This document shows, piece by piece, positions 16,160 through 63,637 of a stretch of DNA of 64,000 bases (positions within the stretch are counted from its first letter, which is position 1; the number at the start of each line of letters is the position of its first letter). The notes below the pieces were generated by a model that was not told the DNA's origin, did no database searches, and worked only from the letters and a program-made list of their open reading frames with translations. The DNA lies in contig JANYGP010000062.1 of assembly GCA_025362315.1 (NCBI GenBank), forward strand, positions 1 through 64,000, given 5' to 3'. The DNA comes from Polaromonas sp. Its GTDB lineage: Bacteria > Pseudomonadota > Gammaproteobacteria > Burkholderiales > Burkholderiaceae_C. The position numbers and the translations under genes are program-made.

Positions 16160-16842
16160 TGACTCGAATCGACCACCTGGTTATCGCGGCCAGCACACTC
16201 GAAGAAGGCGTGGACTGGTGCGAACGCACGCTGGGCATCACGCCTGGCCCGGGAGGCGAGCACCCGCTGATGGGTACGCACAACCGGCTGTTTTCAATGG
16301 CATCGCCCGAATATCCAAATGCCTATTTCGAAATTATTGCTATTAATACAGGAGCTGCTTGCGCCCGTGATATATGCGCCAAGCGCTGGTTTGACCTTGA
16401 CAGTCAGGCCCTGCAGCGTCAACTTCAGCAAACGGGCCCGCAACTGATTCACTTCGTCGCGAGTACGCCGCACGCTGCGCCTGCTGTGCAGGCTTTGGCA
16501 GATTTGGGCATGGATCGCGGCGAGTTGCGCAGCGCTTCCCGGAGCGCGCCACAGGGGTTGCTGTCGTGGCTAATCACCTTGCGCCATGATGGCCAGCGCC
16601 TGATGCATGGCACGCTGCCCACGCTGATCGAGTGGGGCGATGTGCATCCTACGCAGCACATGGCAGCTTCCAGCGTGACGCTGCAATCTTTATCTGCAAG
16701 CTGGCCTGATGCGGACCAACTCGGCAACGCTTATGCGGCCATTGATTTGCAATGTGTGGATGTGGTGCATGGTGAACCCAACCTGACAGCCACCCTGCGA
16801 ACACCGCGCGGCCTCGTCACCCTCCAATCCTCAGGAATTTAA
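16156..16842 (+). CDS. Glyoxalase-like (VOC superfamily) protein
   Basis: The 228-residue protein opens TRIDHLVIAASTLEEGVDWC, typical of glyoxalase-like domain (Glyoxalase_3) proteins of the VOC superfamily. His5 and the Glu of YFEIIAI are candidate metal ligands. A repeat copy encodes NTGAACARDICAK directly after the conserved EIIAI strand and before RWFDLD, where relatives carry a short variable loop. It overlaps the PhzF gene by 4 bp and abuts the dehydratase gene. Confidence 0.8.
   Translation: MMTRIDHLVIAASTLEEGVDWCERTLGITPGPGGEHPLMGTHNRLFSMASPEYPNAYFEIIAINTGAACARDICAKRWFDLDSQALQRQLQQTGPQLIHFVASTPHAAPAVQALADLGMDRGELRSASRSAPQGLLSWLITLRHDGQRLMHGTLPTLIEWGDVHPTQHMAASSVTLQSLSASWPDADQLGNAYAAIDLQCVDVVHGEPNLTATLRTPRGLVTLQSSGI
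16339..16384 (+). repeat. Dispersed repeat, copy C (in frame in the glyoxalase-like gene)
   Basis: GCTAT, spacer, GAGCTGCTTGCGCCCGTGATATATGCGCC. It is read in the sense frame and encodes AACARDICA, replacing a loop of the host protein. Confidence 0.8.
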
Positions 16843-17876: not shown

Positions 17877-19043
17877 ATGATTTCACGCAACATCACAGCC
17901 CTGCTGCTGAAGCTGGCCGGCCAATATCCGGTGATGACCTTGACAGGCCCAAGGCAAAGCGGCAAAACCACCCTTGCCAAGGCGCTGTTCCCAGACAAGC
18001 CTTATGTCACACTGGAAGACCCGGATGTTCGCCGCTTTGCAACAGGTGACCCGCGCGGGTTCTTGGCGCAGTATTCAGGCGGTGCGATTTTTGATGAAAT
18101 TCAGCGTGCGCCCGAGCTGACGTCATACCTGCAGGGCATGGTGGACGCTAACCGCAAGCCAGGGCAATTTATCCTAACGGGCAGCCAACAGTTTGAGTTG
18201 ATGACACAAGTTACGCAGTCATTGGCCGGGCGAACAGGCCTGCTACGGCTGTTACCACTCACGCTGGCTGAGGTGCAGCGCTTCAACAAAAAGGCCGTTA
18301 CGCCCGATTTGGCGGGCACTTTGCTCAAGGGTTTTTACCCGCGTATCCACGACCAAAAACTAGACCCATCTCAAGCATTGGCTGACTACTTTTCAACCTA
18401 TGTCGAACGCGACCTGCGCCAGCTCGCCGCGGTGCAGGACCTGCAGCGGTTTGAACGCTTTGTGCGCCTGTGTGCAGGGCGCTCCGGACAATTACTCAAT
18501 CTCGGCAGCTTGGGCAACGACGCTGGTGTGTCGCAACCGACCGCCCGGGCCTGGATAAACCTGCTGCAAACCAGCTTCATCGTGTACCTGTTGCCGCCCT
18601 GGCACACCAACACAGGCAAGCGGCTTGTCAAATCTCCCAAGCTGTATTTTTACGATGTCGGACTGGCCTGCTGGTTGCTGGGTTTGCGCACGGCCGCGCA
18701 AGTTTCTCGTGACCCGCTGTGGGGTAGCCTGTTTGAAAACTTCATCGTCCTGGAGGCGATGAAAGACCGGCTAAACGCTGGCGAAAGTGCAGAGTTGTAT
18801 TTTTACCGCGACTCGGAAGGCAATGAAGTTGACTTGCTGCTGCCTGTTGGTGGCAAGCTATACGCCATAGAGATCAAGGCGGGCGCCACCGTCAATCCCG
18901 ATTACTTCAAAGGGCTGAAAACCTTTGCAACGCATCATCCGCAAGCCATCGCCGACGGAAATGTGGTTTACGGCGGTACGCAAAACCAGGCCAGAAGCGA
19001 CTGGCCGGTCTATTCCTGGCAACAATTGCTATTGAAACCGTAG
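17877..19043 (+). CDS. AAA-type ATPase with DUF4143 C-terminal domain
   Basis: The 388-residue protein has an N-terminal AAA_14-type ATPase domain (Walker A GPRQSGKTT near residue 25, Walker B-like GAIFDEIQRAPE, sensor-like ILTGSQQF) and a C-terminal DUF4143 domain with a nuclease-like segment (EVDLLLPVGGKLYAIEIKAG). Proteins of this family are common, patchily distributed accessory ATPases of unknown role. It directly follows a strong terminator. The last codons and the TAG stop lie in a copy of the dispersed repeat (19028-19078). Confidence 0.88.
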   Translation: MISRNITALLLKLAGQYPVMTLTGPRQSGKTTLAKALFPDKPYVTLEDPDVRRFATGDPRGFLAQYSGGAIFDEIQRAPELTSYLQGMVDANRKPGQFILTGSQQFELMTQVTQSLAGRTGLLRLLPLTLAEVQRFNKKAVTPDLAGTLLKGFYPRIHDQKLDPSQALADYFSTYVERDLRQLAAVQDLQRFERFVRLCAGRSGQLLNLGSLGNDAGVSQPTARAWINLLQTSFIVYLLPPWHTNTGKRLVKSPKLYFYDVGLACWLLGLRTAAQVSRDPLWGSLFENFIVLEAMKDRLNAGESAELYFYRDSEGNEVDLLLPVGGKLYAIEIKAGATVNPDYFKGLKTFATHHPQAIADGNVVYGGTQNQARSDWPVYSWQQLLLKP

Positions 19044-19078
19044 CTGCTAGCGCTGGTATTACTTGTGTTTTGGCCTGA
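19028..19078 (+). repeat. Dispersed repeat, copy D (supplies the ATPase stop codon)
   Basis: GCTATTGAAACCGTAGCTGCTAGCGC and a diverged right half ending TTTTGGCCTG. The TAG of GTAGCTGCT is the stop codon of the DUF4143 ATPase. Confidence 0.7.
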
Positions 19079-19150
19079 AAGTACTCTTTGAATAAATGGT
19101 CTGACGCGCTGGAGACCAGCGTCCACCTTCACCCGCCGCACAATTACCTT

Positions 19151-23231: not shown

Positions 23232-25415
23232 ATGAATTTCCGCCTGATTCGCAACGCTACTTTATTCATAGCTGCTTGCGCACATATTCATTGGGCTACC
23301 GCCCAATTTAACCCGTTAAATCCGTCAACTTCTGCTGCCAAGGCTGCCAGCAGCGTAGTGGTGACTGACCAGGTGCGCGCCGAGCTGATGGCTTTTGCAC
23401 CGGATGGCGTGGCCCCTGGCAAGCAGGTCTGGGTGGGTTTGCAGATTGCCCATCAACCCGAGTGGCATACCTACTGGAAAAACTCGGGCGACTCTGGCTT
23501 GCCGACCGTGCTCGACTTCAAGCTGCCTGCTGGCATTGACCCGGGCGAGATTGCCTGGCCTGCTCCCAAAAAAATCGCCATCGGTACGCTGGCAAACTAT
23601 GGTTATGAAGGCACGGTTTTGCTGCCAGTGCCGCTGCAAGTGGCCCAGACTTTCAACGCCAGCCAGCTGGACATCAGGCTCAAGGCATCGTGGCTGGTTT
23701 GCAAAAAAGAATGCATCCCGCAGGAAGGCGACTTTGCGTTGAGCCTGCCTGTTAAAAGCTCAACTGCGCTCCAGGGTGCAGCATTTCAGACTGCTTTTGA
23801 CGCAGCGCCCAAACCGCTCAGAGCAGATGGAAGTTTGATCAAGGTCTCTGGCAATGCCATTGAGGTGTCTCTCAGCGGTTTGCCAGCTGCATTTGCAGGC
23901 AAAACGCTGGCGTTTTTCCCCGAAACTGGCAGCGTGATTGAGCCTGCCGCCAAGTGGACACAGGCCTGGCAGGGCAACATGTGGACAGCGCAGATCCCGC
24001 TGTCTGGCCAGCGAACTGAAAGCCCCATGTCCATGCCGGTGGTGGTGGCGCTGGGCAACACGGCAGTGCGGGTTGACGCACCGGTCAAAGGCAATTGGCC
24101 ACAAGTGGCTGCTGCGGTGCAAATCCCGCCTGCCCTGGATGCCGCACTGAAGGCCAATGCCAGCAGCGGCGCTGCGCCAACGGACAGCCAAACCGCCATG
24201 ACGTATTGGCTTGCGTTGCTGGGCGCGCTTGTGGGCGGTCTGATCTTGAATTTGATGCCGTGCGTTTTTCCGGTTCTGGCCATCAAGGTGGTGGGTTTTG
24301 TCAATGTCACAGACTCGCGCACGCGCCTGGTGACCGGGCTGGCTTACACCGCGGGCGTGGTGCTGTCGTTTCTGGCGCTGGGGGCGCTGCTGCTGGGCTT
24401 GCGTGCGGCGGGCGAGCAGCTGGGTTGGGGCTTTCAGTTGCAAAGCCCGGCCGTGGTGGCTGGCCTGGCGGTGCTCTTCACCGTGCTGGGCCTGAATCTG
24501 GCGGGGCTGTTTGAATTTGGCAATTTTTTGCCTGGCCGGGTGGCCAGTCTGCAGCTTAAAAACCCGACACTCAATTCATTTTTATCGGGTGTGCTGGCCA
24601 CAGCAATCGCATCGCCCTGTACCGCACCGTTCATGGGGGCGTCGCTGGGCTACGCACTGGGTTTGCCCACTGCCCAGGCGCTGCTGGTGTTTGCAGCCAT
24701 TGGCACTGGCATGGCATTGCCTTACCTGGCGGCCAGCGCCGTGCCCGCCGTGGCCCGCGCACTGCCCCGCCCCGGCGCGTGGATGGTGACCTTCAGGCAA
24801 TTGATGGCGTTTCCGATGTTTGCCACCACGGCCTGGCTGGTGTGGGTGCTGGGTCAACAAAGCGGCATTGATGGCGCGGGTGCATTGCTGGGCGTGCTGG
24901 TGTTGCTGGCGCTCAGCCTGTGGGCACTGACACTCAAAGGCGGTACGCGTGCTGTCATTGCTACATTTTCAGTAGCTGCTTGCGCCCTATTTATATGGGC
25001 TACAGGCCAAAACATTACCAAAATACAGGAAACCACGGCTTCTGCCGGCAGCCCAAGCACCTTAAACACCTCGAGCGGCGCATGGCAAGCCTGGGAGCCG
25101 GGCCGGGTTGACCAGTTGACTGCTGCCGGCCAAAACGTGTTTGTGGACTTCACGGCGGCCTGGTGCGTGACCTGCCAGTACAACAAAAAAACCACGCTGG
25201 CCAATGCCGATGTCATGGCCGATGTGGCCGCTAAAAAGGTGACGCTGCTGCGTGCTGACTGGACGCGGCGTGACCCGGCCATCACGGCAGCGCTGAGCCA
25301 GCTGGGCCGCAATGGCGTGCCGGTGTATGTGATTTACAAACCTGGCCGCGCGCCGGTGGTGCTTAGCGAGATACTGTCGGTCAGTGATGTCCGGGCCGAG
25401 TTGGCCAAGCTTTGA
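23232..25415 (+). CDS. dsbD: DsbD/ScsB-type thiol:disulfide interchange protein
   Basis: The protein carries electrons from cytoplasmic thioredoxin to the periplasm. Of 727 residues, about 1-25 form a signal peptide (LFIAACAHIHWATAQ), followed by a periplasmic N-terminal domain with LVCKKECIPQEGDF. An eight-helix membrane domain has the redox cysteines of NLMPCVFPVL (about residue 342) and ASPCTAPFMG (about 463). A C-terminal thioredoxin domain has WCVTC (about 645). I choose ATG 23232, since the upstream frame to 23208 only adds eight residues ahead of a complete signal peptide. Two repeat copies lie in frame: one encodes the signal peptide core, the other the last membrane helix. The redoxin gene follows. 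Confidence 0.88.
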   Translation: MNFRLIRNATLFIAACAHIHWATAQFNPLNPSTSAAKAASSVVVTDQVRAELMAFAPDGVAPGKQVWVGLQIAHQPEWHTYWKNSGDSGLPTVLDFKLPAGIDPGEIAWPAPKKIAIGTLANYGYEGTVLLPVPLQVAQTFNASQLDIRLKASWLVCKKECIPQEGDFALSLPVKSSTALQGAAFQTAFDAAPKPLRADGSLIKVSGNAIEVSLSGLPAAFAGKTLAFFPETGSVIEPAAKWTQAWQGNMWTAQIPLSGQRTESPMSMPVVVALGNTAVRVDAPVKGNWPQVAAAVQIPPALDAALKANASSGAAPTDSQTAMTYWLALLGALVGGLILNLMPCVFPVLAIKVVGFVNVTDSRTRLVTGLAYTAGVVLSFLALGALLLGLRAAGEQLGWGFQLQSPAVVAGLAVLFTVLGLNLAGLFEFGNFLPGRVASLQLKNPTLNSFLSGVLATAIASPCTAPFMGASLGYALGLPTAQALLVFAAIGTGMALPYLAASAVPAVARALPRPGAWMVTFRQLMAFPMFATTAWLVWVLGQQSGIDGAGALLGVLVLLALSLWALTLKGGTRAVIATFSVAACALFIWATGQNITKIQETTASAGSPSTLNTSSGAWQAWEPGRVDQLTAAGQNVFVDFTAAWCVTCQYNKKTTLANADVMADVAAKKVTLLRADWTRRDPAITAALSQLGRNGVPVYVIYKPGRAPVVLSEILSVSDVRAELAKL
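23256..23308 (+). repeat. Dispersed repeat, copy E (encodes the DsbD signal peptide core)
   Basis: GCTACTTTATTCATAGCTGC, then TTGCGCACATATTCATTGGG, then CTACCGCCC. It is read in frame as ATLFIAACAHIHWATA, ending at the predicted signal peptidase site ATA-Q. Confidence 0.9.
24960..25008 (+). repeat. Dispersed repeat, copy F (encodes the last DsbD membrane helix)
   Basis: GCTACATTTTCAGTAGCTGC, then TTGCGCCCTATTTATATGGG, then CTACAGGCC. It is read in frame as ATFSVAACALFIWATGQ, a hydrophobic segment just before the C-terminal thioredoxin domain. Confidence 0.88.
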
Positions 25416-25446
25416 TTTTCTGTTTAATTTTCAAGGAGTTTGAACC

Positions 25447-26064
25447 ATGCTCAATCGCCGAATCTTCTCTGCGTCCGTGGCCTTGTCGGGCCTTGCGGCA
25501 GGCGCGGCCCAGGCTGCAACCGCCACCGTTGGGCAAGCAGCACCAGACTTTACTGCGCTGGATACGCTTGGCAAAAGCCACAAGCTCAGCGACTTCAAAG
25601 GCAAGCATGTGGTGCTCGAATGGACCAACCCGGGCTGCCCGTTTGTGGTCAAACATTACGGCGGCAACATGCAGGCGCTGCAATCAGAATTCACGGGCAA
25701 GGGCGTGGTGTGGCTGAGTGTCAATTCCACCGCCCAGGGCGCAGCCGACTACCTGGCGCCCGCCAAACTGATGGCCTGGAAAGCCGAGAAAAAAGGCGCT
25801 GCCACCGCGGTGCTGATGGACGAGTCCGGCAAGATTGGCCAGCTGTACAGCGCCAAGACCACGCCGCACATGTTTATCATCAACCCGCAAGGTGTGCTGG
25901 TGTATGCAGGCGCGATTGACAGCGTTCCGTCCGCGCGTGTGGATGACATCAGGACGGCGACCAATTACGTTCGCCAGGGCCTGAACGAAGCCCTTGGCGG
26001 CAAGGCAGTCAGCATGTCAGCAACCCGCGCTTACGGCTGCTCGGTCAAATACAAGGATGCATAA
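25447..26064 (+). CDS. Periplasmic redoxin/thioredoxin-like protein
   Basis: The 205-residue protein has a signal peptide (MLNRRIFSASVALSG, cleavage near AQA-AT) and a redoxin domain (GQAAPDFTALDTLGKS, LEWTNPGCPFVVKHY with a single active-site Cys). The C-terminal TRAYGCSVKY contains a second Cys. It lies 31 bp after dsbD with AAGGAGTTTGAACC as ribosome binding site, and is likely a periplasmic partner or peroxidase-like target of DsbD. It overlaps the next gene by 8 bp. Confidence 0.85.
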   Translation: MLNRRIFSASVALSGLAAGAAQAATATVGQAAPDFTALDTLGKSHKLSDFKGKHVVLEWTNPGCPFVVKHYGGNMQALQSEFTGKGVVWLSVNSTAQGAADYLAPAKLMAWKAEKKGAATAVLMDESGKIGQLYSAKTTPHMFIINPQGVLVYAGAIDSVPSARVDDIRTATNYVRQGLNEALGGKAVSMSATRAYGCSVKYKDA

Positions 26065-26512
26065 GGATAAGGCAGACTTGCCTGAGCAGGGTGTGACCAC
26101 GCCACCGGACATCGCTCACATTTTGGCAAATTGCCGGACCATTGCAGTGGTGGGTCTGTCAGCCAACCCAGCGCGGCCCAGCCATGGCGTGGCGCAGTAC
26201 ATGCAGGCCCATGGCTACCGGATTGTGCCGGTCAATCCGAGTGAAACCAGCGTTTTGGGTGAGCGGTGTTACCCAAGCCTGAGCGAAGCGGCCCGCCATG
26301 AAAAGTTTGACCTGGTGAACTGTTTCAGGAACAGCGCCGACATGGCCCCCATCATTGACGAAACCATCGCTCTGGCAGGCGTTGCAGGCATCCAGGCCAT
26401 CTGGATGCAGCAGAGCGTGAGCTGCCCGCAAGGCGCTGCGATAGCCCAGGCCGCAGGGCTGCGGGTGGTACAAGACCGTTGCCTTAAAATCGAACACCGG
26501 CGGTTGCACTGA
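26057..26512 (+). CDS. CoA-binding domain protein (YccU-like)
   Basis: This 151-residue Rossmann-fold protein has the CoA-binding signature [20 protein letters not shown] and the ending EHRRL typical of YccU/YneT-type proteins. I start it at ATG 26057, preceded by CAAGG and overlapping the redoxin stop by 8 bp; the frame is open further upstream, but only inside the redoxin gene. The function of the family is not established. Confidence 0.85.
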
Positions 26513-26586
26513 TCCAGTGTCGGCGCAGCCCCGGCCAATGTGACCCACCCGGGTCTGCCCCACCCATCAATGCAAGAGCTCCTGCC

Positions 26587-27696
26587 ATGTACGCACCGCT
26601 TCAAAACGATACCTTCATCCGCGCGTGCATGCGCCAAGCCACAGAGCACACTCCCGTGTGGCTGATGCGCCAGGCCGGTCGCTACCTGCCTGAATACAAA
26701 GCCACCCGCGCCAAAGCTGGCAGCTTCATGGGCCTGGCCACCAACACCGATTACGCGACTGAAGTCACGCTGCAGCCCCTGGAGCGTTACAAGCTGGACG
26801 CGGCCATTTTGTTCAGCGACATATTGACCATCCCCGATGCCATGGGCCTGGGCCTGAGCTTTGCATTGGGCGAAGGCCCCAAGTTTGCCCACAACGTGCG
26901 CGACGAAGCCGCAGTGGCCAAACTGGCTGTGCCGGACATGGCCAAGCTGCGCTATGTGTTTGATGCGGTCACGTCGATTCGCAAGGCTTTGAACGGCCGC
27001 GTTCCGCTGATCGGCTTTTCAGGCAGCCCTTGGACATTGGCTTGTTACATGGTGGAAGGCGGTGGGTCTGACGACTACCGCGCGGTCAAAACCATGCTGT
27101 ACCAGCGCCCTGACCTGATGCACCGGATGCTGGCCATCAATGCCGATTCAGTGGCCGAATATTTGAACGCGCAAATTGAAGCCGGCGCGCAGGCCGTGAT
27201 GATTTTTGACAGCTGGGGCGGCGTATTGTCGGATTCCGCCTTTCCGGAATTCAGCCTGGCGTACACGGCGCGGGTGCTGTCCAAGCTCAAGCGCAGCCAC
27301 GACGGTGTGGTGATTCCGCGCCTGGTGTTCACCAAAGGCGGCGGGCTGTGGCTGGACGCCATGGGCCAACTGGACTGTGAGGTGTTGGGCCTGGACTGGA
27401 ATGTCAATCTGGGCAAGGCACGCGCCCAGGTTGGCACACATGGCAAATCTGGAAGCAACGCAAAAGCGTTGCAAGGCAACCTGGACCCGAATGTGCTGTT
27501 TGCCAACGCAAGCCAGGTTGAAACCGAGGCCATCAAGGTGCTGGACAGCTTTGGCAAGCCGCACACGAACGCCAATACAACCGGCCCAACACATATTTTT
27601 AATCTGGGCCACGGCATCAGCCAGTTCACACCGCCTGAAAATGTGGAAGTGCTGGTCAACGCAGTACATGCTCACTCTCGGACGATGCGTTTATAG
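26587..27696 (+). CDS. hemE: Uroporphyrinogen decarboxylase
   Basis: The enzyme converts uroporphyrinogen III to coproporphyrinogen III in the cytoplasm, a step shared by haem and bacteriochlorophyll synthesis. The 369-residue protein carries the hallmark [17 protein letters not shown] near residue 22, [16 protein letters not shown] and [19 protein letters not shown]. The ATG follows GAGCTCCTGCC. It lies 11 kb from the photosynthesis cluster and downstream of the CoA-binding gene with a 74-bp gap. Confidence 0.95.
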
Positions 27697-27789
27697 GCCG
27701 CGTGCTTCGGGTTGCGATTGTGACAAACAGCTGCCAAAACGCACGCACCACAGCTTTCTTAACATAAAAACAGGGGTGTGCTTTGCGAC

Positions 27790-27798
27790 TTATGCACA
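27790..27798 (+). promoter_or_regulatory. DnaA-box match TTATGCACA
   Basis: It matches the TTATNCACA consensus exactly and lies upstream of priA on the same strand as the perfect box at 27977. Confidence 0.45.
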
Positions 27799-27976
27799 AA
27801 TTTCGCTTGGCGCCGTAGGTTCCCAACCCATGTTCAGCATCCCTCGCTATCAAAGCCATAGCTATGCTAAGTTGTTGATTTATATAGGAATCTTAATCTG
27901 CTTTTTAAATGGGCATTCTAGCCAAAGCCTTGAATTTAAAGGCCTTCAGCGCTTCAGGGGTAAGCTATCAACAAAG

Positions 27977-27985
27977 TTATCCACA
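27977..27985 (+). promoter_or_regulatory. DnaA box TTATCCACA
   Basis: This is an exact copy of the high-affinity DnaA box, 107 bp before the priA start. Confidence 0.6.
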
Positions 27986-28091
27986 GAAAAAGTGGGCTTG
28001 TGCAAAGCACATGTAAATCAAGCACTTAGCGCGTTGTCTGCATGTATCAGGCAAGCAGTGCCTACAACTTTATACAGGTTTGAGCCAAAAA

Positions 28092-30335
28092 ATGACTGAG
28101 TGGCTGCAAGTGGTGGTGGCCGCGCCCGCCCACAGTGCCATTGCCGGGCCGCTGACCTACCGAAATGAGTCGGTACTTGCGGCTGGCTCACTGGTGCGCG
28201 TGCCACTGGGCAAGCGCGAGGTGCTGGGGGTGGTGTGGCAAAACGCCAACGACAGCGGTAATTTGCCCCCTGATCAGGCCAAAAGCATTGTTGGCGCGCT
28301 GCATGGCCTGGACCCATTGAATGCCCAATGGCGCGCCTTGATTGACTTCACGGCTGGGTACTACCAGCGCTCGCTGGGGGAAGTAGCCCTGGCGGCGCTG
28401 CCGCCACAGTTGCGCGAGCTGACAGCCCTGCAGTTGAGCAGACGCCTCAAACGCACCACAGCAGACACCAGCAATCCGCACATTACTACTGATTTAATAG
28501 CGCTTAGCGCCCAACAACAGGGCGCTATCGGCAGTTTTAATGCTGAAACCAGCTTGAAAAGCCGCCCTGCCCTGCTGTTTGGTGCCACCGGCAGCGGCAA
28601 AACCGAGGTTTATCTGCGGCTGGCGGCTCAAGTGTTGGCGCAGGACCCTGCGGCTCAGGTGTTGGTCATGGTGCCTGAAATCAACCTCACGCCCCAGCTG
28701 CAGGCGCGGTTTGAAGCCCGCTTTGCCCATCTGGGTCTGGAGCGTGTGGTCGCGCTGCACAGCGGCCTGACGCCTGCCCAGCGCCTGAAAAGCTGGCTGG
28801 CCGCCCATTCAGGCAACGCCCGGCTCATTTTGGGTACCCGCATGGCCGTGCTGGCGTCCATGCCCCACCTCAAGCTGATTGTGGTCGACGAAGAGCACGA
28901 CCCCAGCTACAAGCAACAGGAAGGCGCGCGTTATTCGGCCCGTGACCTGGCGGTGTACCGGGCCAGCATTCAGCCCGGTTGCCGTGTGCTGCTCGGGTCA
29001 GCCACGCCGTCGCTGGAGAGCTGGCAGGCGACGATTAGCGGGAAGTACCAGTTGCTGACCATGTCAGATCGCATTGGCGCATCTCTTTCCCCGGATTTAC
29101 TCCCTCGCCCTCTCGGAGAGGGCGGGGGCTTCACGCTGCGGCTCCAGGGGCGCTTGAGCGCTTCTGGACAGCGTGAAGAAGACCCGGCTCTGACGGGTCA
29201 GCGGTCTGCAAGACAGGGCTCTGCGACCCCCAATGTGGGCCAGCTACCCACCGTCCGCCGCCTGGACATGGCTCAACAGCCCAAAAACTGCATCATCGCC
29301 CCGCCGCTGCTCAAAGCCATTGAAGAGCGCATCGCACGCGGCGAGCAGTCATTGATCTTTCTCAACAGGCGCGGCTACGCCCCAGTCCTCGCATGCCACG
29401 ACTGCGGCTGGAAAAGCGAATGCCCGCACTGCAGCGCATACCGGGTTTTTCACAAAATTGACCGCAGCCTGCGCTGTCACCATTGCGGGTATGCAGAGCG
29501 GGTTCCCAGAGCCTGCCCGACCTGCGGCAACATCGACATTGCCCCCATCGGGCGCGGCACCGAGCGGCTTGAAGAACACCTGGCTGAGCTGCTTGCCAAC
29601 AGCCAACGGCCTGACGGCAGCCCCGTGCGCATTGCCCGCATTGACGCCGACAGCACACGGCTCAAAGGCGCACTTGAGCAGCAACTCGCCAGCGTGCATG
29701 CCGGTGATGTGGATGTGCTGGTCGGCACGCAAATGATTGCCAAGGGCCACGACTTCAGACACATCACTTTAGTTGCCGCCATCAACCCCGACGGCGCGCT
29801 GTTTTCAAGCGACTTTCGCGCGCCCGAGCGCTTGTTCAGCCTGCTCATGCAAGCCGGTGGCCGCGCCGGGCGTGATGCGGCTCGCAGCAGCACGAGTGAA
29901 ATGTGGGTGCAAACCTTTCACCCGCAGCACCCACTGTTTGCTGCTTTAAATACGCACGACTACCACAAATTCGCAGCCCGGCAGCTTGAAGAGCGCCAAG
30001 CCGCAGGCCTGTCACCGTTCGGCTTTTCTGCATTGATCCGAGCCGAAGCCAAATCGCAAGAGGTAGCTCAAGGGTTTTTAAACGCGGCCATTGCAGCGGC
30101 ATTGGCAGCCGAACTGCAAGGCTGTGACCACATTACCGCCTACCCAGCAGTGCCCATGACCATTCAGCGCGTCGCCAACATCGAGCGTGCGCAAATGCTG
30201 GTTGAAAGCGCGTCCCGCACGGCGCTACAGCGCTTTTTGGCGGCCTGGCAACCTGTGCTGTTCAGCACCCGCAGGCAAACTGAATTTAAAAGCCTGATTC
30301 GCTGGGCGATTGATGTGGATCCGCTGGTGATCTAA
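28092..30335 (+). CDS. priA: Primosomal replication helicase PriA
   Basis: This 3'-5' helicase restarts stalled forks. The protein has 747 residues from ATG 28092 (MTEWLQVVVAAP); a TTG at 28080 is an alternative. Walker A GATGSGKTE and the DEEH box (VVDEEHDPSYKQQEGARYSA) are followed by the paired zinc-binding cysteines (CHDCGW, CPHC, CHHCG, CPTCG). Two insertions are visible in frame: a dispersed repeat copy (28486-28530) before the helicase domain, and about 45 extra residues encoded by a palindromic element (29096-29235) between LLTMSDRIGAS and LPTVRRLDM. The reading frame is intact. Confidence 0.95.
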   Translation: MTEWLQVVVAAPAHSAIAGPLTYRNESVLAAGSLVRVPLGKREVLGVVWQNANDSGNLPPDQAKSIVGALHGLDPLNAQWRALIDFTAGYYQRSLGEVALAALPPQLRELTALQLSRRLKRTTADTSNPHITTDLIALSAQQQGAIGSFNAETSLKSRPALLFGATGSGKTEVYLRLAAQVLAQDPAAQVLVMVPEINLTPQLQARFEARFAHLGLERVVALHSGLTPAQRLKSWLAAHSGNARLILGTRMAVLASMPHLKLIVVDEEHDPSYKQQEGARYSARDLAVYRASIQPGCRVLLGSATPSLESWQATISGKYQLLTMSDRIGASLSPDLLPRPLGEGGGFTLRLQGRLSASGQREEDPALTGQRSARQGSATPNVGQLPTVRRLDMAQQPKNCIIAPPLLKAIEERIARGEQSLIFLNRRGYAPVLACHDCGWKSECPHCSAYRVFHKIDRSLRCHHCGYAERVPRACPTCGNIDIAPIGRGTERLEEHLAELLANSQRPDGSPVRIARIDADSTRLKGALEQQLASVHAGDVDVLVGTQMIAKGHDFRHITLVAAINPDGALFSSDFRAPERLFSLLMQAGGRAGRDAARSSTSEMWVQTFHPQHPLFAALNTHDYHKFAARQLEERQAAGLSPFGFSALIRAEAKSQEVAQGFLNAAIAAALAAELQGCDHITAYPAVPMTIQRVANIERAQMLVESASRTALQRFLAAWQPVLFSTRRQTEFKSLIRWAIDVDPLVI
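28486..28530 (+). repeat. Dispersed repeat, copy G (degenerate, in priA)
   Basis: CTACTGATTTAATAGCGCTT, then AGCGCCCAACAACAGGGC, then GCTAT. It lies in frame in priA and encodes LIALSAQQQGAI. Its core is in the same frame as copies B, C, E, F and I. Confidence 0.6.
29096..29190. repeat. REP-like palindromic insertion in priA
   Basis: The stretch has a compact hairpin, GCCCTCT-CGG-AGAGGGC at 29107-29123. A perfect 10-bp inverted pair follows, CTTCACGCTG at 29129-29138 and CAGCGTGAAG at 29169-29178. It lies where PriA proteins normally have a short linker, so it looks like an in-frame insertion of an intergenic-type element. Confidence 0.7.
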
Positions 30336-30402
30336 GTTATTTTGCGCTAATGCAGCCATCTAAAAGCATTATCCAAATACTTCGACGAAAAACTAAACCG
30401 CG

Positions 30403-31083
30403 ATGGAAATTCAATTTAACCCCTCTCGTTCTTTTTGCTATCAATTCGGGCGTTATACGGTTTTGGCCGAAGTGCTGCAAATGCTTGAGGTCACAAGCGG
30501 CCACGAGTTCAGACTGACAGAACTCGCCCAACGGGTCATTGATAAATACCTTTCTCCTGAACAACAACAAATCAAGGTCAAGAAAGCGCAATCTGACCGT
30601 TTGGAGCCAATTCATTCCATCGTGAAATTTTTCGTTTCTTTCATCGCTAAAGAACAAGAAACGTTTATCAGAATCGGAGAAGGCGTTTATAGATCACGAA
30701 CTGCTGACGACATTTCAGATGTTGAACTTGAAGACGCGGCGCTCGCGGATGGAGATGAAGACACGGCTGAATTTGAAGGTTGGATTTACGCATTCAGTTT
30801 TCCCGCTTTGGTGAGATCAAACGAAGCCTTCCCCATAAAAATTGGCAAAACAATTGGCAGCGTTGAGGAGCGTGTTCAACGACAATGCAAAGGGTCAGCA
30901 GCGTTTGACAACCCCATAATTCTTGGAAAATGGCAGGTAAAGCGTGTTGGCCCAACCGAGCTAGCTGCCCATAACGTCTTGAAAGCAAGAGGCAAGTGGC
31001 GTGAGAACGTACCCGGAGTCGAATGGTTCAACACGACTGCTCTAGAAGTCAAAACGATTTTGGATTTTGTTGCTTCTTCCTAA
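30403..31083 (+). CDS. GIY-YIG/T5orf172-like nuclease-superfamily protein
   Basis: The 226-residue protein has a C-terminal domain with GWIYAFSFP, FPIKIGKTIGSVEERV and ARGKWRENVPGVEWFNTT, which resembles the GIY-YIG-related T5orf172 domain. The N-terminal half (residues 1-95) has a winged-helix-like look with acidic stretches (DISDVELEDAALADGDEDTA) after it. Composition is more AT-rich than neighbours, suggesting acquisition. It lies between priA and hipBA, and its function is unknown. Confidence 0.7.
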   Translation: MEIQFNPSRSFCYQFGRYTVLAEVLQMLEVTSGHEFRLTELAQRVIDKYLSPEQQQIKVKKAQSDRLEPIHSIVKFFVSFIAKEQETFIRIGEGVYRSRTADDISDVELEDAALADGDEDTAEFEGWIYAFSFPALVRSNEAFPIKIGKTIGSVEERVQRQCKGSAAFDNPIILGKWQVKRVGPTELAAHNVLKARGKWRENVPGVEWFNTTALEVKTILDFVASS

Positions 31084-31102
31084 ACGCAAGAGAGTTACAG
31101 AG

Positions 31103-31204
31103 ATGCCCAAACCCGTCAACTGGATAAATTCCAATGCGGCTCAATCAAATGCACTCCTGAAAATTATGAGGCGAGGTAACCATCAATTGCGCTGGGAAAA
31201 GTAA
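31103..31204 (+). CDS. Possible 33-residue ORF
   Basis: An ATG-started frame (MPKPVNWINSNAAQ to LRWEKstop) follows the GIY-YIG gene by 19 bp, with a weak purine-rich stretch (AAGAGAGTTACAGAG) upstream. It has no recognisable family and may be chance. Without it the stretch 31084-31237 would be an empty gap. Confidence 0.2.
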   Translation: MPKPVNWINSNAAQSNALLKIMRRGNHQLRWEK

Positions 31205-31237
31205 TTTCTTTAGCTGATGCAATTCGGGGCATTCGTT

Positions 31238-32473
31238 CTAACCAGCACGCGCCGCCTCTTTCGCCAACCCCAGCCCAGACTCCCAAGCCACACGCATCTG
31301 CTCATACAGCGGCGCAGCAATCCGCCGATCTGCCCGGCACTTGGCCAAAGCCTGCGTCATGCCCTGAGCGATGCGCTGGATAACTGCTGCGGGATCAGAC
31401 ACCCCGCAAACGCGCCGCCCAAAATCCAGCAATTCTTTGGCGTACGGATAAATTTTTGAGCCTTTGGGGCCTGCAAACAGTTTGAGCGCCATGGTGTGGT
31501 CTTCCAGCTCGGGGCCGCCGTCAAAGCGTTGGTATTTGTAGATCGATGTGGTGACGACATCAAACATGGGGGCAAGGCGAATGTCATCTACACCGGTGTA
31601 CAGCACACCAAAGTTTTTGAGGTGACCATCGCCGTTGTGCACCATGGCACTGAAAGCGACTTGCTCAAAAAAGCGCGCCAGCTCGGTTGCAGAAAGATTG
31701 ATCAACTTCAGGGCAGTAGCAATGCGCTCGTAGCTGCCGTGGTACTTGCGGTCTGACAAGGTGTCACGCACATGCTGACCCATCAGCGATGCAGCATCTT
31801 CAAACCCCAGGCGTGTGCCATCTGCAGCAATGTCAAAACGCTCTATCACCAGCAAAGATCCATCTTCAGACAAATCAACTGGCGCAACCTGGATGCCTGC
31901 CTCCCGTGCGGCATACAGGCACATAAACTCGTTGGCAGACAAGCCGGGATAACGGTCAGCCGCCATTTTGATGATGAGTGTTGGCACTGGAATGGTTGCC
32001 TTGTCAGGCACCATGATTTTGGGTTGAACGCCTGAAATGCCTGCACCCGTAGAAAGGAAGGCACGCATCAGTTCCTGAAACAGCGCCGGGCCGTTGCCGC
32101 TGGCCAACAATTCGGCTTTGTTCACCACCGCGCCGGCCTTTATTGCTGGCGCATCCGCCAGCCGATACCCCAACCTCCCGATGCCGTTGTCACCCATCAG
32201 CGCCAGCAGGTGCATCGGCGTGATCGTCTGCTTTGGAAAGAACTGGCGGATTTGCATGAACAGGTAGCCTTCAGGCAGGTTCATGTCCATAGCCGGGAAC
32301 AAGGCACCGCCGCCATCAAAATGCAAAGTGCCTGGCGGCATCAGCAACGACACGGATGGCTGAGCCGGGTCATCACGGCGATAGTCAAACGTATAGGTTG
32401 ATGCCTGTACCAACTGTCCACTGTGCAGGCCGTTGATATCGACATCCAGCAAGCGGATGCGTTCAGGCAGCAT
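31238..32473 (-). CDS. HipA-family serine/threonine kinase toxin
   Basis: The 411-residue protein has the HipA N-terminal barrel (RIRLLDVDINGLHSGQLVQA) and kinase-like C-terminal domain: GISGVQPKIMV resembles the nucleotide loop and HNGDGHLKNFGVLY the catalytic loop, with PMFDVV as the metal site. E. coli HipA phosphorylates glutamyl-tRNA synthetase. I start it at ATG 32473, overlapping the antitoxin stop by 11 bp; ATG 32491 is an alternative. A frame to 32608 runs inside the antitoxin gene and is a poor start. Confidence 0.88.
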   Translation of the reverse strand: MLPERIRLLDVDINGLHSGQLVQASTYTFDYRRDDPAQPSVSLLMPPGTLHFDGGGALFPAMDMNLPEGYLFMQIRQFFPKQTITPMHLLALMGDNGIGRLGYRLADAPAIKAGAVVNKAELLASGNGPALFQELMRAFLSTGAGISGVQPKIMVPDKATIPVPTLIIKMAADRYPGLSANEFMCLYAAREAGIQVAPVDLSEDGSLLVIERFDIAADGTRLGFEDAASLMGQHVRDTLSDRKYHGSYERIATALKLINLSATELARFFEQVAFSAMVHNGDGHLKNFGVLYTGVDDIRLAPMFDVVTTSIYKYQRFDGGPELEDHTMALKLFAGPKGSKIYPYAKELLDFGRRVCGVSDPAAVIQRIAQGMTQALAKCRADRRIAAPLYEQMRVAWESGLGLAKEAARAG

Positions 32474-32768
32474 GGGTGTTGACCTTTTCATCAACTTCGT
32501 CGTCTTCGTCTGCAAACCGGCGCTGCATTTCGTCAAGTGTCGGCATGCCAGACCTTTGCAAGCTGATGCACAAGCCCATGGCGCGCAAGATGTCAAACAG
32601 AGACGCAACCGTTACATCGCCGCCGCGCTCCAGGTTGTGAAGCACCGTACGGCTTCGCCCAGCCTTCCGAGCAATTGCAACGGCAGACAGTTTGTTGTCT
32701 GCCCGATATTCGGCAATGGCCCTGCTAAGGTCTGTAGAAAACTTTAATTTGTCCATAATAGTGGACAT
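32463..32768 (-). CDS. HipB-like XRE-family antitoxin
   Basis: The 101-residue protein has an N-terminal helix-turn-helix (LSAVAIARKAGRSRTVLHNL, then ERGGDVTVASLFDIL) followed by an acidic C-terminal tail (DEDDEVDEKV). It precedes hipA on the same strand with an 11-bp overlap. ATG at 32756 is an alternative start. Two matching palindromic sites cover and precede the start and are the likely operators for autoregulation. Confidence 0.87.
   Translation of the reverse strand: MSTIMDKLKFSTDLSRAIAEYRADNKLSAVAIARKAGRSRTVLHNLERGGDVTVASLFDILRAMGLCISLQRSGMPTLDEMQRRFADEDDEVDEKVNTHAA
32750..32767. promoter_or_regulatory. Candidate HipB operator 1
   Basis: TGTCCATAATAGTGGACA, a perfect 6-bp palindrome with a 6-bp spacer, overlaps the hipB start. 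Confidence 0.55.
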
Positions 32769-32789
32769 TAAATCTTGAAATCTGCAATT

Positions 32790-32807
32790 TGTCCACTATC
32801 GTAAACA
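32790..32807. promoter_or_regulatory. Candidate HipB operator 2
   Basis: TGTCCACTATCGTAAACA shares its first ten bases with the complement of operator 1 (TGTCCACTAT) and lies 40 bp from it, centre to centre. Confidence 0.45.
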
Positions 32808-32846
32808 ACAGACTATGCAAAATTATAAAAAATTGGCTCAATGTAA

Positions 32847-33800
32847 TCAAACCAGCAAAGCCACAGCCCCAGAAAACGTAAAAAACGCCAACACCGTCGA
32901 CAGCAAAATAATCCGCGCAATACGCCCGTTGTCGGCGTCAAAGCGCTCGGCTAACAACGCCACGTTGCTGGCACTTGGCAGGGCTGCAACCAGCACCACA
33001 ACTGTTAACGCAAAACGATCCAGTGGCAATCCCAGCCGGATGGCGGTCAGCCCCAGCAGCAGCAATAAAACCGGGTGCAGCACCAGCTTGATCAACACGA
33101 CCGGCATGTAATCGCCCAGCGGCGTTGGTGCAGCCGCATTGGCCTGCGACCGGGCCAGAACTGCGCCGATGGTGAACAGCGCCACGGGCGATGCCGCATC
33201 GGCCAGCAAGCCGATTGTCTGCATGACAGGGATGGGCAGCGTGAACTGATACGCCGAGGCCAACGTTCCACCCAAAATGGCCCATGGCATTGGGTTTAAC
33301 GCTGCGCCTTTCAAGGCATTTTGTGCCGCCACACCGGCGCCGTGGCTGCCTGCAGCATCAAGCCGGGACAGCGCAATGCACAACGAACTGGTCACCACCA
33401 GGTCAATCACGATTGTGACGATGGCGGGGCCCGCTGCCTGGGCACCCAGCAGCGCAACCAGCAGCGGCACACCCATAAAACCGGTGTTCGGAAACGCGCC
33501 TACCAGCGCACCAAACGACGCATCGTTCCAGCCAATGCGGCCCCGATGTGTGACAGCCACAGTAAACCCCACCATGACCAGCGCACACAACAAATACACC
33601 GCAACCAGCCCACCATCAAGCAACTGTGCAATCGGTGTGGATGAGCCAAACCGATACAGCATGCACGGCAATGCAAAGTACAAAACAAAGGTGTTCAGGC
33701 CGGGAATGGCCACTTGCGGCAGCCAGCCACGCCGCGCTGCGATGTAACCGCACAGTACAAGTGCGAAGAACGGAAAGGTGACCAGAAGAATGGCGAGCAT
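32847..33800 (-). CDS. AEC (auxin efflux carrier)-family transporter
   Basis: This 317-residue integral membrane protein opens LAILLVTFPFFALVLCGYIA and has about ten hydrophobic segments, with GAFPNTGFMGVPLLVALLG typical of the AEC family. Bacterial members transport dicarboxylates such as malate or malonate, but the substrate here is unknown. It lies downstream of the hipBA promoter region and is transcribed away from rep. Confidence 0.85.
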   Translation of the reverse strand: MLAILLVTFPFFALVLCGYIAARRGWLPQVAIPGLNTFVLYFALPCMLYRFGSSTPIAQLLDGGLVAVYLLCALVMVGFTVAVTHRGRIGWNDASFGALVGAFPNTGFMGVPLLVALLGAQAAGPAIVTIVIDLVVTSSLCIALSRLDAAGSHGAGVAAQNALKGAALNPMPWAILGGTLASAYQFTLPIPVMQTIGLLADAASPVALFTIGAVLARSQANAAAPTPLGDYMPVVLIKLVLHPVLLLLLGLTAIRLGLPLDRFALTVVVLVAALPSASNVALLAERFDADNGRIARIILLSTVLAFFTFSGAVALLV

Positions 33801-34117
33801 GGTGGGCGTGAAAGTCTGTCGCGTATGTCGTAGCTGGTGAAATGCTATGAAATAAATAGCTGCTTGCGCAGTATTTATATGGGCTATAGGCTTAAATACA
33901 TGTGAAAAGCAAGGTTTTATCAGGGTGTGATGGGTTGCAGGCCCACAACGGCGTTACGGCCATTTTGACACCTGTAAAAGCTGGTTGATGGTGCACATTG
34001 CCTGCTGCAACATGAAATATGCACAACTTCCGCCCGTTATGATTCTGGATCCGTCTCACACGATTGCTATCGCTGCCGTCCTGGCAAAACCGACACTTCT
34101 GAATTGATTCCCCCCGC
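33801..34117. other. 317-bp gap between the AEC transporter and rep
   Basis: This is a divergent intergenic region. It holds one well-preserved copy of the dispersed repeat (33844-33891). I see no other structured feature. Confidence 0.7.
33844..33891 (+). repeat. Dispersed repeat, copy H (intergenic)
   Basis: GCTATGAAATAAATAGCTGC, then TTGCGCAGTATTTATATGGG, then CTATAGGC. It lies in a divergent gap. Confidence 0.85.
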
Positions 34118-36250
34118 ATGTCCGACCCTTTGGCTGATGGCCTGAACCTGGCCCAACTTGAAGCCGTGAACTATGTTGAAGGACCTTGCCTGGTGCTGGC
34201 CGGAGCCGGTTCGGGCAAGACGCGGGTGATCACACACAAGATTGGGCGGCTGATTCAGTCGGGCCTGAAAGCCGAGCAGATTGCAGCGATTACCTTTACC
34301 AACAAAGCCGCTGCCGAGATGCGGGAGCGGGCCAAAAAACTGATGGGCCGCGCTGTCAAGGGCGTGCTGATTTGCACTTTTCACTCGCTCGGCATGCGCA
34401 TGCTCAGGCAAGACGGCGAGGTGCTGGGGCTGAAGAAGCAGTTTTCGATACTGGACACCGACGATGTCACCAGCATCATCAAGGACTGTGGCGGCGGTAC
34501 CGATGCGCCCACCGCACGGCAGTGGCAGTGGACGATCAGCCGATGGAAAAACATGGGGCTGAATGCTGCACAAGCCTCGGGCATTGCCAGCGGTGAGGAA
34601 GAGGCGCTGACGGCCCGCATCATGGCGCGATATGAAGAGCGTTTGACGGCTTACCAAAGCGTGGATTTTGATGATCTGATTGGCTTGCCGCTCAAGCTGT
34701 TGCAGCAGCACGATGCGGTGCGAACCAAATGGCAAGAAGCATTTAGCCACGTGCTGGTCGACGAATACCAGGACACCAATGCCACGCAGTACGAAGTGCT
34801 GAAGTGTCTGGTCGGCGATTCATCGACTGGTGGAGGCCGCTTCACCGCCGTAGGCGACGATGACCAGTCCATCTACGGCTGGCGCGGCGCAACGCTCGAC
34901 AACCTGAAAAAGCTGCCGGTTGACTACCCAAACTTGAAGGTCGTCAAACTGGAGCAAAACTACCGCTCGACCAGCGCCATCCTGCGGGCAGCCAACAACG
35001 TGATTGCACCCAACCCCAAACTGTTCCCCAAAACTCTTTTCAGCGAGCTGGGTGAAGGCGAACCGGTGCGGGTGGTGGACTGCGACAGCGAAGAACACGA
35101 GGCGTCTAGGGTGGTGGCGCGCATCCAGAGCCTGCGGGCCGAGGGTACCCTGCAAGCAGCAGGCGGGCAGTACCGGGAGTGGAAAGACTTTTGCGTGCTG
35201 TACCGCGCCAACCACATGGCCAAGCCATTTGAAAAAGCGTTTCGCAAAGCCAACATTCCGTACAAGGTGTCGGGCGGGCAAAGCTTTTTTGACCGGGCCG
35301 AAATCAAGGATTTGTGCTGCTGGCTGCGCCTGCTGGCCAACAACGACGACGACCCGGCCTTCATGCGCGCCGTGACCACGCCCAAACGCGGCATTGGCCA
35401 CACCACGCTGGGCACGTTGGGTACGTTCGCCAGCCAGTACAAATTAAGTTTGTTTGAAGCGCTGTTCAGCAACTCGCTGAACTCGGTACTGCCTGCCAAA
35501 GCCGTGGCCAGTCTGCATGAATTTGGCCGGTATCTGAATGACTTGGAGTACCGCGCCAAACGCACGGTGGGCTCTGTTGACGCGCTGGTGTTTTTAAAAG
35601 ACTGGCTCAAAGAAGTCGACTACGAGAAAAATCTGTACGACAACGAAGACAGCGAAAAGACAGCCGCTGCCAAGTGGACCAACGTGATGGATTTTTGTGA
35701 GTGGATGGCGCAGCGTTGTGGTGGGCAGGATGATGAAGAGGCCGTTGGCAATGTCATCACCGCGCCAACCAAAACCATGCTCGAAGTGGTGCAAAGCATT
35801 GCCCTGCTGTCAACACTGAGCGAGCGCGAGGGCGACCAGAATGTCGTCACACTTTCAACGCTCCATGCCGCCAAGGGGCTGGAGTGGCCGCATGTGGTGC
35901 TGGCGGGCGTGAACGAGGGGCTGCTGCCTTTCAAAATGGACGATGACGACACGGTGGAAAACATCGCCCTGCGCCTGCAGGAAGAACGCCGCCTGATGTA
36001 CGTGGGCATCACACGTGCGCAGCGCACCCTCAGCGTGAACTGGCTGCGCCGCCGCAAGAAAGGGCGCGATACGATTGCCGGGTTGCCGAGTCGGTTTATT
36101 GCAGAGATGGCTTTGAACAAAGAAACCACGCGGGAAGATCCACGGGAAAAGGTCAAAGCGTTGCGGGCTGAATTTGCGCAGCGCGCGCTGGACACTGCCG
36201 CAGCAAAAGCGGTTGCCCTTGAAAGCGTCACAACACCGGCCTGGGATTGA
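34118..36250 (+). CDS. rep: Rep/UvrD-family ATP-dependent DNA helicase
   Basis: This superfamily-1 helicase of 710 residues has the Q motif LNLAQLEAVNYVEGP, Walker A AGAGSGKTR, motif Ia ITFTNKAAAEM, VDEYQDTNATQYEVL, GDDDQSIYGWRGA and LEQNYRST, and the C-terminal HAAKGLEWPHVVL and MYVGITRAQ. Overall it is closer to Rep than UvrD in the opening and length. The next gene starts two bases after its stop. Confidence 0.9.
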   Translation: MSDPLADGLNLAQLEAVNYVEGPCLVLAGAGSGKTRVITHKIGRLIQSGLKAEQIAAITFTNKAAAEMRERAKKLMGRAVKGVLICTFHSLGMRMLRQDGEVLGLKKQFSILDTDDVTSIIKDCGGGTDAPTARQWQWTISRWKNMGLNAAQASGIASGEEEALTARIMARYEERLTAYQSVDFDDLIGLPLKLLQQHDAVRTKWQEAFSHVLVDEYQDTNATQYEVLKCLVGDSSTGGGRFTAVGDDDQSIYGWRGATLDNLKKLPVDYPNLKVVKLEQNYRSTSAILRAANNVIAPNPKLFPKTLFSELGEGEPVRVVDCDSEEHEASRVVARIQSLRAEGTLQAAGGQYREWKDFCVLYRANHMAKPFEKAFRKANIPYKVSGGQSFFDRAEIKDLCCWLRLLANNDDDPAFMRAVTTPKRGIGHTTLGTLGTFASQYKLSLFEALFSNSLNSVLPAKAVASLHEFGRYLNDLEYRAKRTVGSVDALVFLKDWLKEVDYEKNLYDNEDSEKTAAAKWTNVMDFCEWMAQRCGGQDDEEAVGNVITAPTKTMLEVVQSIALLSTLSEREGDQNVVTLSTLHAAKGLEWPHVVLAGVNEGLLPFKMDDDDTVENIALRLQEERRLMYVGITRAQRTLSVNWLRRRKKGRDTIAGLPSRFIAEMALNKETTREDPREKVKALRAEFAQRALDTAAAKAVALESVTTPAWD

Positions 36251-36252
36251 GC

Positions 36253-36783
36253 ATGAATCAGGGCATCATTCGAAATTTTGCTATATTGTTTATAGCTGCT
36301 TGCGCCCATATTAATTGGGCTACAGCACAAAACAATACCAAAAACAGCCCTAAAAAGGCACCTGGAACCGTTTGTCCCGCAGCCGAAGACATCAAGGCGG
36401 CGCAGCTTTACGGCATGTGGCAGGTGGTCTTTACCAACCCACCATCGGGCTTGCCGCCCAAAGCGACGATGCTGCTGGAAAAACACGAGGAATTTTCAGA
36501 CAGCCTGCAGGGTGTGGTGATGCGCCCGATGCCCGCTGGCCGCGGCGCAAGCCTGAAAAAGGGCCACGCGGTCAAAGCTGCACTGGCCGGTGACGTGGAA
36601 GACGGCTTTGTGATTCTGGACGAGTCCAGCGACAACGTCAGTATTTCAGGGACATGGAACGGCCAGCTGCTTGAAAGCAGTTGCGGCCGTGAAGTCACCG
36701 GGCAATGGAAGGACACCAGTGCCAGTGCAGCCGCCGATGCACCAGACATTGCATTTGTGATGAAAAAACTCTCGGGCTGGTGA
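36253..36783 (+). CDS. Secreted hypothetical protein with repeat-derived signal peptide
   Basis: The 176-residue protein has a signal peptide whose core (AILFIAACAHINWATAQ) is encoded by a repeat copy and closely matches the start of DsbD, although the mature parts are unrelated. The mature protein is soluble and has one conserved-looking segment (AAQLYGMWQVVF, then GTWNGQLLESSCGREVTGQW), which suggests a small beta-rich periplasmic domain. I know no function. ATG 36253 is chosen over an upstream TTG at 36247. It lies two bases after the rep stop. Confidence 0.7.
   Translation: MNQGIIRNFAILFIAACAHINWATAQNNTKNSPKKAPGTVCPAAEDIKAAQLYGMWQVVFTNPPSGLPPKATMLLEKHEEFSDSLQGVVMRPMPAGRGASLKKGHAVKAALAGDVEDGFVILDESSDNVSISGTWNGQLLESSCGREVTGQWKDTSASAAADAPDIAFVMKKLSGW
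36280..36326 (+). repeat. Dispersed repeat, copy I (encodes a signal peptide core)
   Basis: GCTATATTGTTTATAGCTGC, then TTGCGCCCATATTAATTGGG, then CTACAGC. It is read in the same frame as copy E and gives AILFIAACAHINWATA. Confidence 0.92.
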
Positions 36784-38183: not shown

Positions 38184-38216
38184 TGCACGGCGACTTCATT
38201 GACCAGCCACCTCTTT

Positions 38217-38263
38217 GCTATTGTTTAAGTAGCTGCTAGCGCCCGTTTTAATTGGCTTTAAGG
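38217..38263 (+). repeat. Dispersed repeat, copy J (intergenic)
   Basis: GCTATTGTTTAAGTAGCTGC, then TAGCGCCCGTTTTAATTGG, then CTTTAAGGC. It lies between the antiporter and HiPIP genes. Confidence 0.8.
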
Positions 38264-38396
38264 CATTCTTTAATGCAAATTGACACTGTACGTAGCCTGC
38301 ATAGTTGATATTGGCACTGTGACTATGGGGTTTTAATATGAACCTTACGGTCGTTTATGGCATAGTCATGGCTTCAGCAACTTCACAATTGATATC

Positions 38397-63075: not shown

Positions 63076-63105
63076 CGAGGACCGACAAAATACAGTTTTA
63101 TGATT

Positions 63106-63153: not shown

Positions 63154-63197
63154 TTTTTTTATATTAAATACAAGCTTTTTAAGCTTCAGGAGCAGCC

Positions 63198-63629: not shown

Positions 63630-63637
63630 AGGTAAAT

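Follow-up and report, generated by a model that had tools for sequence, protein, structure and literature searches.

In a 64,000-nucleotide stretch of Polaromonas DNA, here called the window, one DNA motif of about 67 nt lies in frame within the signal peptides of two unrelated genes: dsbD, and a gene of unassigned function that starts at position 36253. The two genes and their motif copies are listed here with position-weight scores, the matrix being described below.

23232..25415, forward strand: dsbD, thiol:disulfide interchange protein, 727 residues from the ATG (PF11412, PF02683, PF13899)
23255..23321, forward strand: motif copy E, in frame in the dsbD signal peptide (MNFRLIRNATLFIAACAHIHWATAQ), score 69.4
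24959..25025, forward strand: second copy of the motif in dsbD, within a hydrophobic segment preceding the thioredoxin-like domain (IATFSVAACALFIWATGQNITKI), score 73.5
36253..36783, forward strand: exported-looking protein of 176 residues, without Pfam or NCBIfam match, with matches in 46 of 61 genus genomes, its own included
36279..36345, forward strand: motif copy I, read in frame within the signal peptide of this function-unassigned protein (MNQGIIRNFAILFIAACAHINWATAQ), score 69.2

One motif in two signal peptides

An earlier note on this DNA had held that the same repeat supplies both N-termini and that the mature proteins are unrelated, and we could confirm both statements. Copies E and I agree at 27 of 29 core bases and at 49 of 67 bases overall, and they are translated in the same frame, as LFIAACAHIHWATAQ and LFIAACAHINWATAQ, respectively, with LFIAACAHI-H/N-WATAQ as their common peptide. 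DsbD carries the three Pfam domains given above, whereas the 36253 product matches no Pfam or NCBIfam family. The second dsbD copy, of which the earlier note had made no use, lies in frame like that of the signal peptide, within a hydrophobic segment that we labelled TM8 by hand, without a predictor. The IAAC of the dsbD, PBP1C and 36253 signals also looks lipobox-like, so that processing may occur there or, in dsbD and the 36253 product, at ATA/Q. In a LolB protein (L184:15728-16243) a lipobox-like VLIAGC is supplied by the motif.

A dispersed motif with sharp borders

The core AGCTGCTTGCGC...GGGCTA, with a spacer of 5–15 bases allowed, matched five times in the window and not once in 100 shuffles. 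Over the whole genome there were 48 exact copies with a fixed 11-base spacer (49 core-pattern matches in all, one having a longer spacer) and, with up to three mismatches, 476 copies (230 forward, 246 reverse), compared with two for the reversed-pattern control. A weight matrix was built from 44 of the 48 exact copies with the fixed spacer; the excluded four were the two in dsbD and those of the 36253 gene and PBP1C. Applied to a 464-kb sample consisting of the window and four 100-kb stretches of the genome, it found 103 copies scoring above 20, or about 220 per Mb, and none in the reversed control (maximum −4.4; −9.4 for the reversed sequence of the window alone). Alignment of the 103 copies gave sharp borders near −17 and +50 around the core, fixed spacing, a length of about 67 nt, an information content of about 56 bits, and the rough consensus tGCTATtaATTtAGTAGCTGCTtGCGCCCgTATTaatTGGGCTA-AGgC--ATTT-At--t-aAAA. 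Both orientations were used similarly (58 and 49 of the 107 sampled matches scoring above 5). The leading co-varying position pairs in this alignment were not Watson–Crick partners, and a hairpin RNA was discarded as a candidate, as the window gave no Rfam match at gathering score and covariation lent no support.

Exact core matches occurred in 26 of 61 genus genomes, the present one included, and the record titles among the matches listed name Rhodoferax, Polaromonas, Curvibacter, Simplicispira, Variovorax, Acidovorax, Paenacidovorax and others. When 18 other genomes were searched with three mismatches, five (G013, G040, G058, G061 and G080) were at or near the control level, so that the motif, although present in several genera of the Comamonadaceae, is absent from part of the family.

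Placement in genes and excess in signal peptides

Using a simple gene caller of our own, which called about 89% of the sample coding, we placed 49 of the 103 copies wholly and 4 partly within genes and 50 in intergenic DNA. The proposal that the repeat family is non-coding was thus not borne out. Intergenic DNA was nevertheless favoured about 4.6-fold, since the 50 copies lie in 10.6% of the sequence. The 49 intragenic copies were unevenly distributed over the reading frames, 18 being read in the signal-like sense frame (AAC...WA), 21 in one antisense frame (...AQAA...) and 10 in the other four. In the sense frame, A GCT GCT TGC GCN, its translation is roughly [IV]-A-A-C-A-x-x-x-W-A-x-[AG]-Q, preceded by a hydrophobic stretch.

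Eight of 50 intragenic copies lay in signal peptides, with 1.0 expected; the PBP1C copy, called extragenic, had been added by hand, raising the intragenic number from 49 to 50. They belong to dsbD, the 36253 gene, PBP1C, LolB, a DUF1223 protein, a TctC-type receptor, a polysaccharide deacetylase and a TupA-like protein, the last being read in an antisense frame. The NCBIfam models for LolB and TupA matched below their cut-offs and the Pfam LolB model above. A SCO1 protein having the motif just ahead of its hydrophobic core was excluded from the count. Because the window had suggested the idea, it was left out of the statistic, whereupon 6 of 44 intragenic copies remained in signal peptides against 0.9 expected (p ≈ 0.0002), in agreement with the over-representation that had been predicted. 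The expectation is liberal, with 111 of 441 called genes counted as signal-like; it was taken from this genome and used for other species too. From other Comamonadaceae records we collected 81 copies, of which 78 were usable (three lay too close to an end) and 29 were judged intragenic; four of these 29 were in signal peptides (L216, L225, L234 and L262; p = 0.003), and as two of the four look orthologous, counting that pair once gave p = 0.02.

Motif copies probably written over existing sequence

According to the earlier note, the repeat had landed at gene starts and become, or replaced, a signal peptide. This was not supported, as motif-free orthologues carry signals of their own and coding copies often occur without any change of length. 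For the 36253 gene, such orthologues with own signals were L086, L094 and L100 (top score below −15 across the locus); for dsbD, one (L056) is from the genus and four (L318, L333, L336 and L342) are from other genera. A distant orthologue with the same residues and no DNA element had been named as evidence against that proposal, and the results in this regard were divided: L319 reads FLMAACALFTNAHAQ without a match on that strand, whereas several other genera do show a DNA match in the dsbD signal region (L322, 41.9; L320, 29.9; L323, 28.3).

For coding copies outside signal peptides, we compared lengths with motif-free orthologues, defined by a site score below −15 at the orthologous position, since some top matches lie elsewhere. 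There were 26 such copies, at 25 loci plus the second one in dsbD, and five of the 25 loci had no motif-free orthologue. Among the remaining 21 copies, 11 differed by no more than 2 residues from one or more such orthologues, two were intermediate (CCA, 4 residues; acetoacetate-CoA ligase, 5 residues) and eight were longer by 7–35 residues than every motif-free orthologue seen. The second dsbD copy apart, the in-place loci were GlmU, PriA, IcmF, L016, L030, L005, C95_11458, C90_36108, C90_29948 and C95_85956 (10 of 20), C90_29948 being without a Pfam match and BioC-like to our eye. At the second dsbD copy, 20 of the 24 family rows covering the site were of equal length, with two rows 3 residues shorter and two 1 residue longer. 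The IcmF copy brought no length change relative to nine of ten genus relatives, of which three lack the motif at this position (G012 had 4 extra residues), and its motif region aligned without a gap to PDB entry 4xc6, which we take to be a Cupriavidus enzyme; the match of IcmF to NF045497 fell below the threshold of the model, the gene being only partly present at the locus.

Native residues could also be followed beneath the motif. In an RlmI-type methyltransferase copy, 12 and 11 of 23 residues were kept from two motif-free orthologues. By locus, survival was 12 of 23 for C90_36108, 14 of 26 for the dsbD segment (compared with L337), 8 of 23 for IcmF and only 2–6 for five others, so that this argument is strong for those few loci at which survival is high. 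In the motif-free genome G058, the GlmU loop had the same length and the CCA loop was only 4 residues shorter; hence extra length need not accompany the motif (G013 and G040 differ). Since conserved proteins with a copy are often equal in length to their motif-free relatives, the motif seems to have been written onto existing sequence. Many loci contradict insertion as the sole process: IcmF, the methyltransferases of RlmI and SpoU type, PriA, GlmU, the second copy in dsbD, an AddA-like helicase, an ABC transporter, C90_29948, an L-2-hydroxyglutarate-oxidase-like protein and an enoyl-CoA-hydratase-family protein. In-frame insertion of one unit length, a trait of Rickettsia palindromic elements (RPEs) and miniature inverted-repeat transposable elements (MITEs), was not seen at 20 loci compared with their orthologues, where the differences ranged from 0 to 35 residues.

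Conservation of motif positions at shared loci

Averaged over up to eight orthologous loci in 10 genus genomes, site scores followed genome-wide motif density (Spearman 0.85) more closely than dsbD identity (0.63). Motif-rich genomes kept the motif positions best at shared loci. Genome G014, with a dsbD 69% identical, had a mean site score of 44, and G043, at 75% identity, of 0.9; other means were 20 (G026), 26 (G046), 25 (G038) and 9 (G024). In G012 and G014 (five and six loci, respectively), the 32 high-information positions were 0.91 and 0.85 identical to this genome and the 16 low-information positions 0.60 and 0.51, the remaining 19 positions being left out of the comparison. The corresponding values for G043 were 0.64 and 0.47, with the high-information identities of G024, G046, G038 and G026 falling in between. 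Simple decay over time was dismissed as an account of this pattern, since G014 is no closer by dsbD identity than G024, G043 and G046, yet has better copies.

Interpretation and alternatives

The explanation that we favour, at a probability of roughly 0.6, is that, in motif-rich members of the family, a DNA motif of about 67 nt is maintained as DNA throughout the genome, evolving in the manner of DNA-uptake sequences, and has been overlaid on signal peptides chemically able to accept it. Its preservation seems to serve the DNA and not the protein. As with DNA-uptake sequences, a recognition bias would act on copies that arise and persist through substitutions, small indels and recombination, and copies would collect where the encoded peptide is tolerated, that is in linkers, loops, termini, signal peptides and hydrophobic helices. 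Because one frame of the motif reads as an export-compatible peptide, an existing signal peptide can be rewritten to the motif without loss of export, and this is what would have happened to the pre-existing signal peptides of dsbD and the 36253 gene. What stands of the initial proposal is thus that one DNA motif shapes the signal peptides of unrelated genes, and does so recurrently; the landing mechanism does not. Identifying the recognition event with DNA uptake during transformation is a guess, and one that we would ourselves bet against at modest odds. We also put forward, quite tentatively, that the Comamonadaceae hold an unrecognised and unusually long self-recognition motif of the uptake type, with lineage dialects, whose upkeep rewrites proteins. 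Signal peptides would be a favoured place for this, as the motif specifies an export-compatible peptide in one of its frames.

Several of the results count against a maintained and overlaid motif. The eight copies longer than all motif-free orthologues seen suit insertion, and when all motif-free orthologues had to agree to within 2 residues, only 5 of 20 loci were in place (IcmF, L016, L030, C90_36108 and C95_85956). A continuously evolving motif might leave more intermediates than the four sampled matches that scored 5–20, above a clean gap. The trend in site scores is not monotone (G026, density 382, mean 20; G046, density 141, mean 26), and, being derived from 10 related genomes with kinship ignored and with density taken from the same core pattern, it is suggestive and not proof. 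High-information positions exceeded low-information ones in motif-poor genomes too, and placement by best score favours them. Signal peptides were judged by eye together with a crude rule, and, given the matches in several other genera, the motif in the dsbD signal region may there be of ancient origin. ComEC was found in 17 of 17 genomes tested, motif-free ones included, and with this uninformative result competence genes were abandoned as a tracker of the motif. The DNA uptake sequences (DUS) of Neisseria and the uptake signal sequences (USS) of Pasteurellaceae, finally, are 10–12 nt long, compared with the about 67 nt and 56 bits found here.

An alternative that we consider unlikely, though it may hold for part of the copies, is that a mobile palindromic element resembling repetitive extragenic palindromic (REP) sequences, RPEs or MITEs was inserted long ago, became or replaced the signal where it came to lie at gene starts, and later decayed in some lineages. 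It would explain the gains of 7–35 residues at PurL, GluQRS, XdhA, DapF, Tex, a metallo-beta-lactamase-fold protein, MoeA and a urate-oxidase-family protein, as well as the intergenic excess. GCCC/GGGC arms, the GTAG within the consensus and the inverted-repeat copies among the matches listed for G070 are also in keeping with it, as is one Y1 transposase, the sole Y1-type match in this genome (PF01797; L347, G000:C70:38448-38774; assembly rated 88.5% complete). The in-place copies, 11 of 21, speak against such an element, as do the widely varying gains, the native residues persisting in the RlmI-type and IcmF copies, the lack of covariation in the 103 copies and the GlmU and CCA loops of motif-free G058. 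Somewhat less probable again is a binding site for another chromosome-wide protein, such as a nucleoid, segregation or recombination factor, laid in place on coding DNA with no role in uptake. The A/T blocks near −6, +16, +37 and +48, lying between G/C blocks, may indicate contact over several helical turns, and the similar use of both orientations would fit; that such sites would tolerate a protein-changing cost is, however, an assumption, and no candidate protein was found, no search for one having been made. A last alternative, that the two signal peptides are alike by chance or common descent and no repeat is involved, draws on the fact that dsbD signals of the form LFLIAACALSTGAxAQ are common in the genus and are seen in other genera; we regard it as scarcely credible in view of the core matches in the window (five, with none in shuffles) and the genome (476, with two in controls).

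If maintenance and overlay of the motif are correct, export signals and conserved enzymes in several genera are shaped by pressure at the level of DNA, and the Comamonadaceae have a concrete and testable candidate for a self-DNA signal. Even without a role in uptake, the motif accounts for the look-alike signals of unrelated proteins in this genome. Similarity between N-termini is thus not safely read as homology here, and nature offers many pairs of signal peptides of which one has the motif and the other lacks it.

Comparison with known repeats and uptake sequences

The comparisons made here draw on parts of the papers cited. Like the present motif, DUS and USS occur in hundreds of copies on both strands, in genes and between them, with one orientation favoured in frames and with lineage variants; their preference for permissive regions may be shared as well (PMC2397512, PMC2346458). 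Uptake is known for DUS, whereas for the motif described here it is a guess. DUS were furthermore fewer than expected in the class that includes signal-peptide genes, as tabulated in PMC2397512, unlike the present motif with its excess in signal peptides.

Repeats that form signal peptides have already been described, namely the enterobacterial RU-2 (Delihas 2007, PMC2759123; reviewed in PMC2229807). RU-2 is, however, a MITE-like unit of 168 bp, whereas the motif studied here occurs in several unrelated genes, with in-place copies and conserved positions. GTAG/CGTC-tagged REPs (PMC3733652) and RPEs (PMC2229807) are likewise short, numerous and sometimes within genes, and the GTAG of the REPs recurs in our consensus; the differences are that here no stem is backed by covariation, that in-place copies occur, and that about half of the copies are intragenic, contrary to the extragenic placement of REPs (49 of 103 wholly and 4 partly within called genes).

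In a 2017 survey of spaced motifs, no genome had more motif pairs than that of Rhodoferax ferrireducens T118, with 140, and the motifs were listed as potentially novel, so far without function and mostly intergenic (PMC5217627). Two of them, ATAGCT(N)22CAAAAG of Polaromonas naphthalenivorans and GCTTAT(N)5AAGCG of Acidovorax ebreus, look to us, comparing by eye, like dialects of the present motif. The sections of that survey covered here hold no analysis of signal peptides or of in-place copies, and within the open-licence literature we noticed no account of either the in-place occurrence or the signal-peptide excess of this motif and saw no uptake sequence for the Comamonadaceae group.

Further copies in the window and elsewhere

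The other copies in the window are given here, with intergenic positions according to our own gene caller.

28484..28550, forward strand: weaker motif copy in priA (alignment; PriA domains), over LSAQQ residues common to relatives, score 28.5
33843..33909, forward strand: intergenic copy, score 70.7
38216..38282, forward strand: intergenic copy, score 49.2
63105..63171, forward strand: intergenic copy, score 69.9
63638..63704, forward strand: intergenic copy, score 63.1
63818..63884, reverse strand: intergenic copy, score 51.6
10968..11034, forward strand: copy within a called gene, in the favoured antisense frame, score 51.3
16338..16404, forward strand: copy within a called gene, in the favoured sense frame, score 47.5
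19027..19093, forward strand: copy overlapping the end of a called gene, score 35.3
1665..1731, reverse strand: weak intergenic copy, score 26.7

Three of these copies fall inside 800 bases (63105-63884), two on one strand and one on the opposite strand. Elsewhere in the genome, C34:39692-40208 also holds three copies, in about 520 bases, and two of these share their variable spacer with the copy at C84:49791, which may reflect a recent duplication. Among the matches listed for G070, a genome of another genus, copies of the form AGCTGCTAGCGCTTG...ATAAGCGCTA make up an inverted repeat, and this resembles the Acidovorax ebreus motif as given in the part of the survey covered (PMC5217627).

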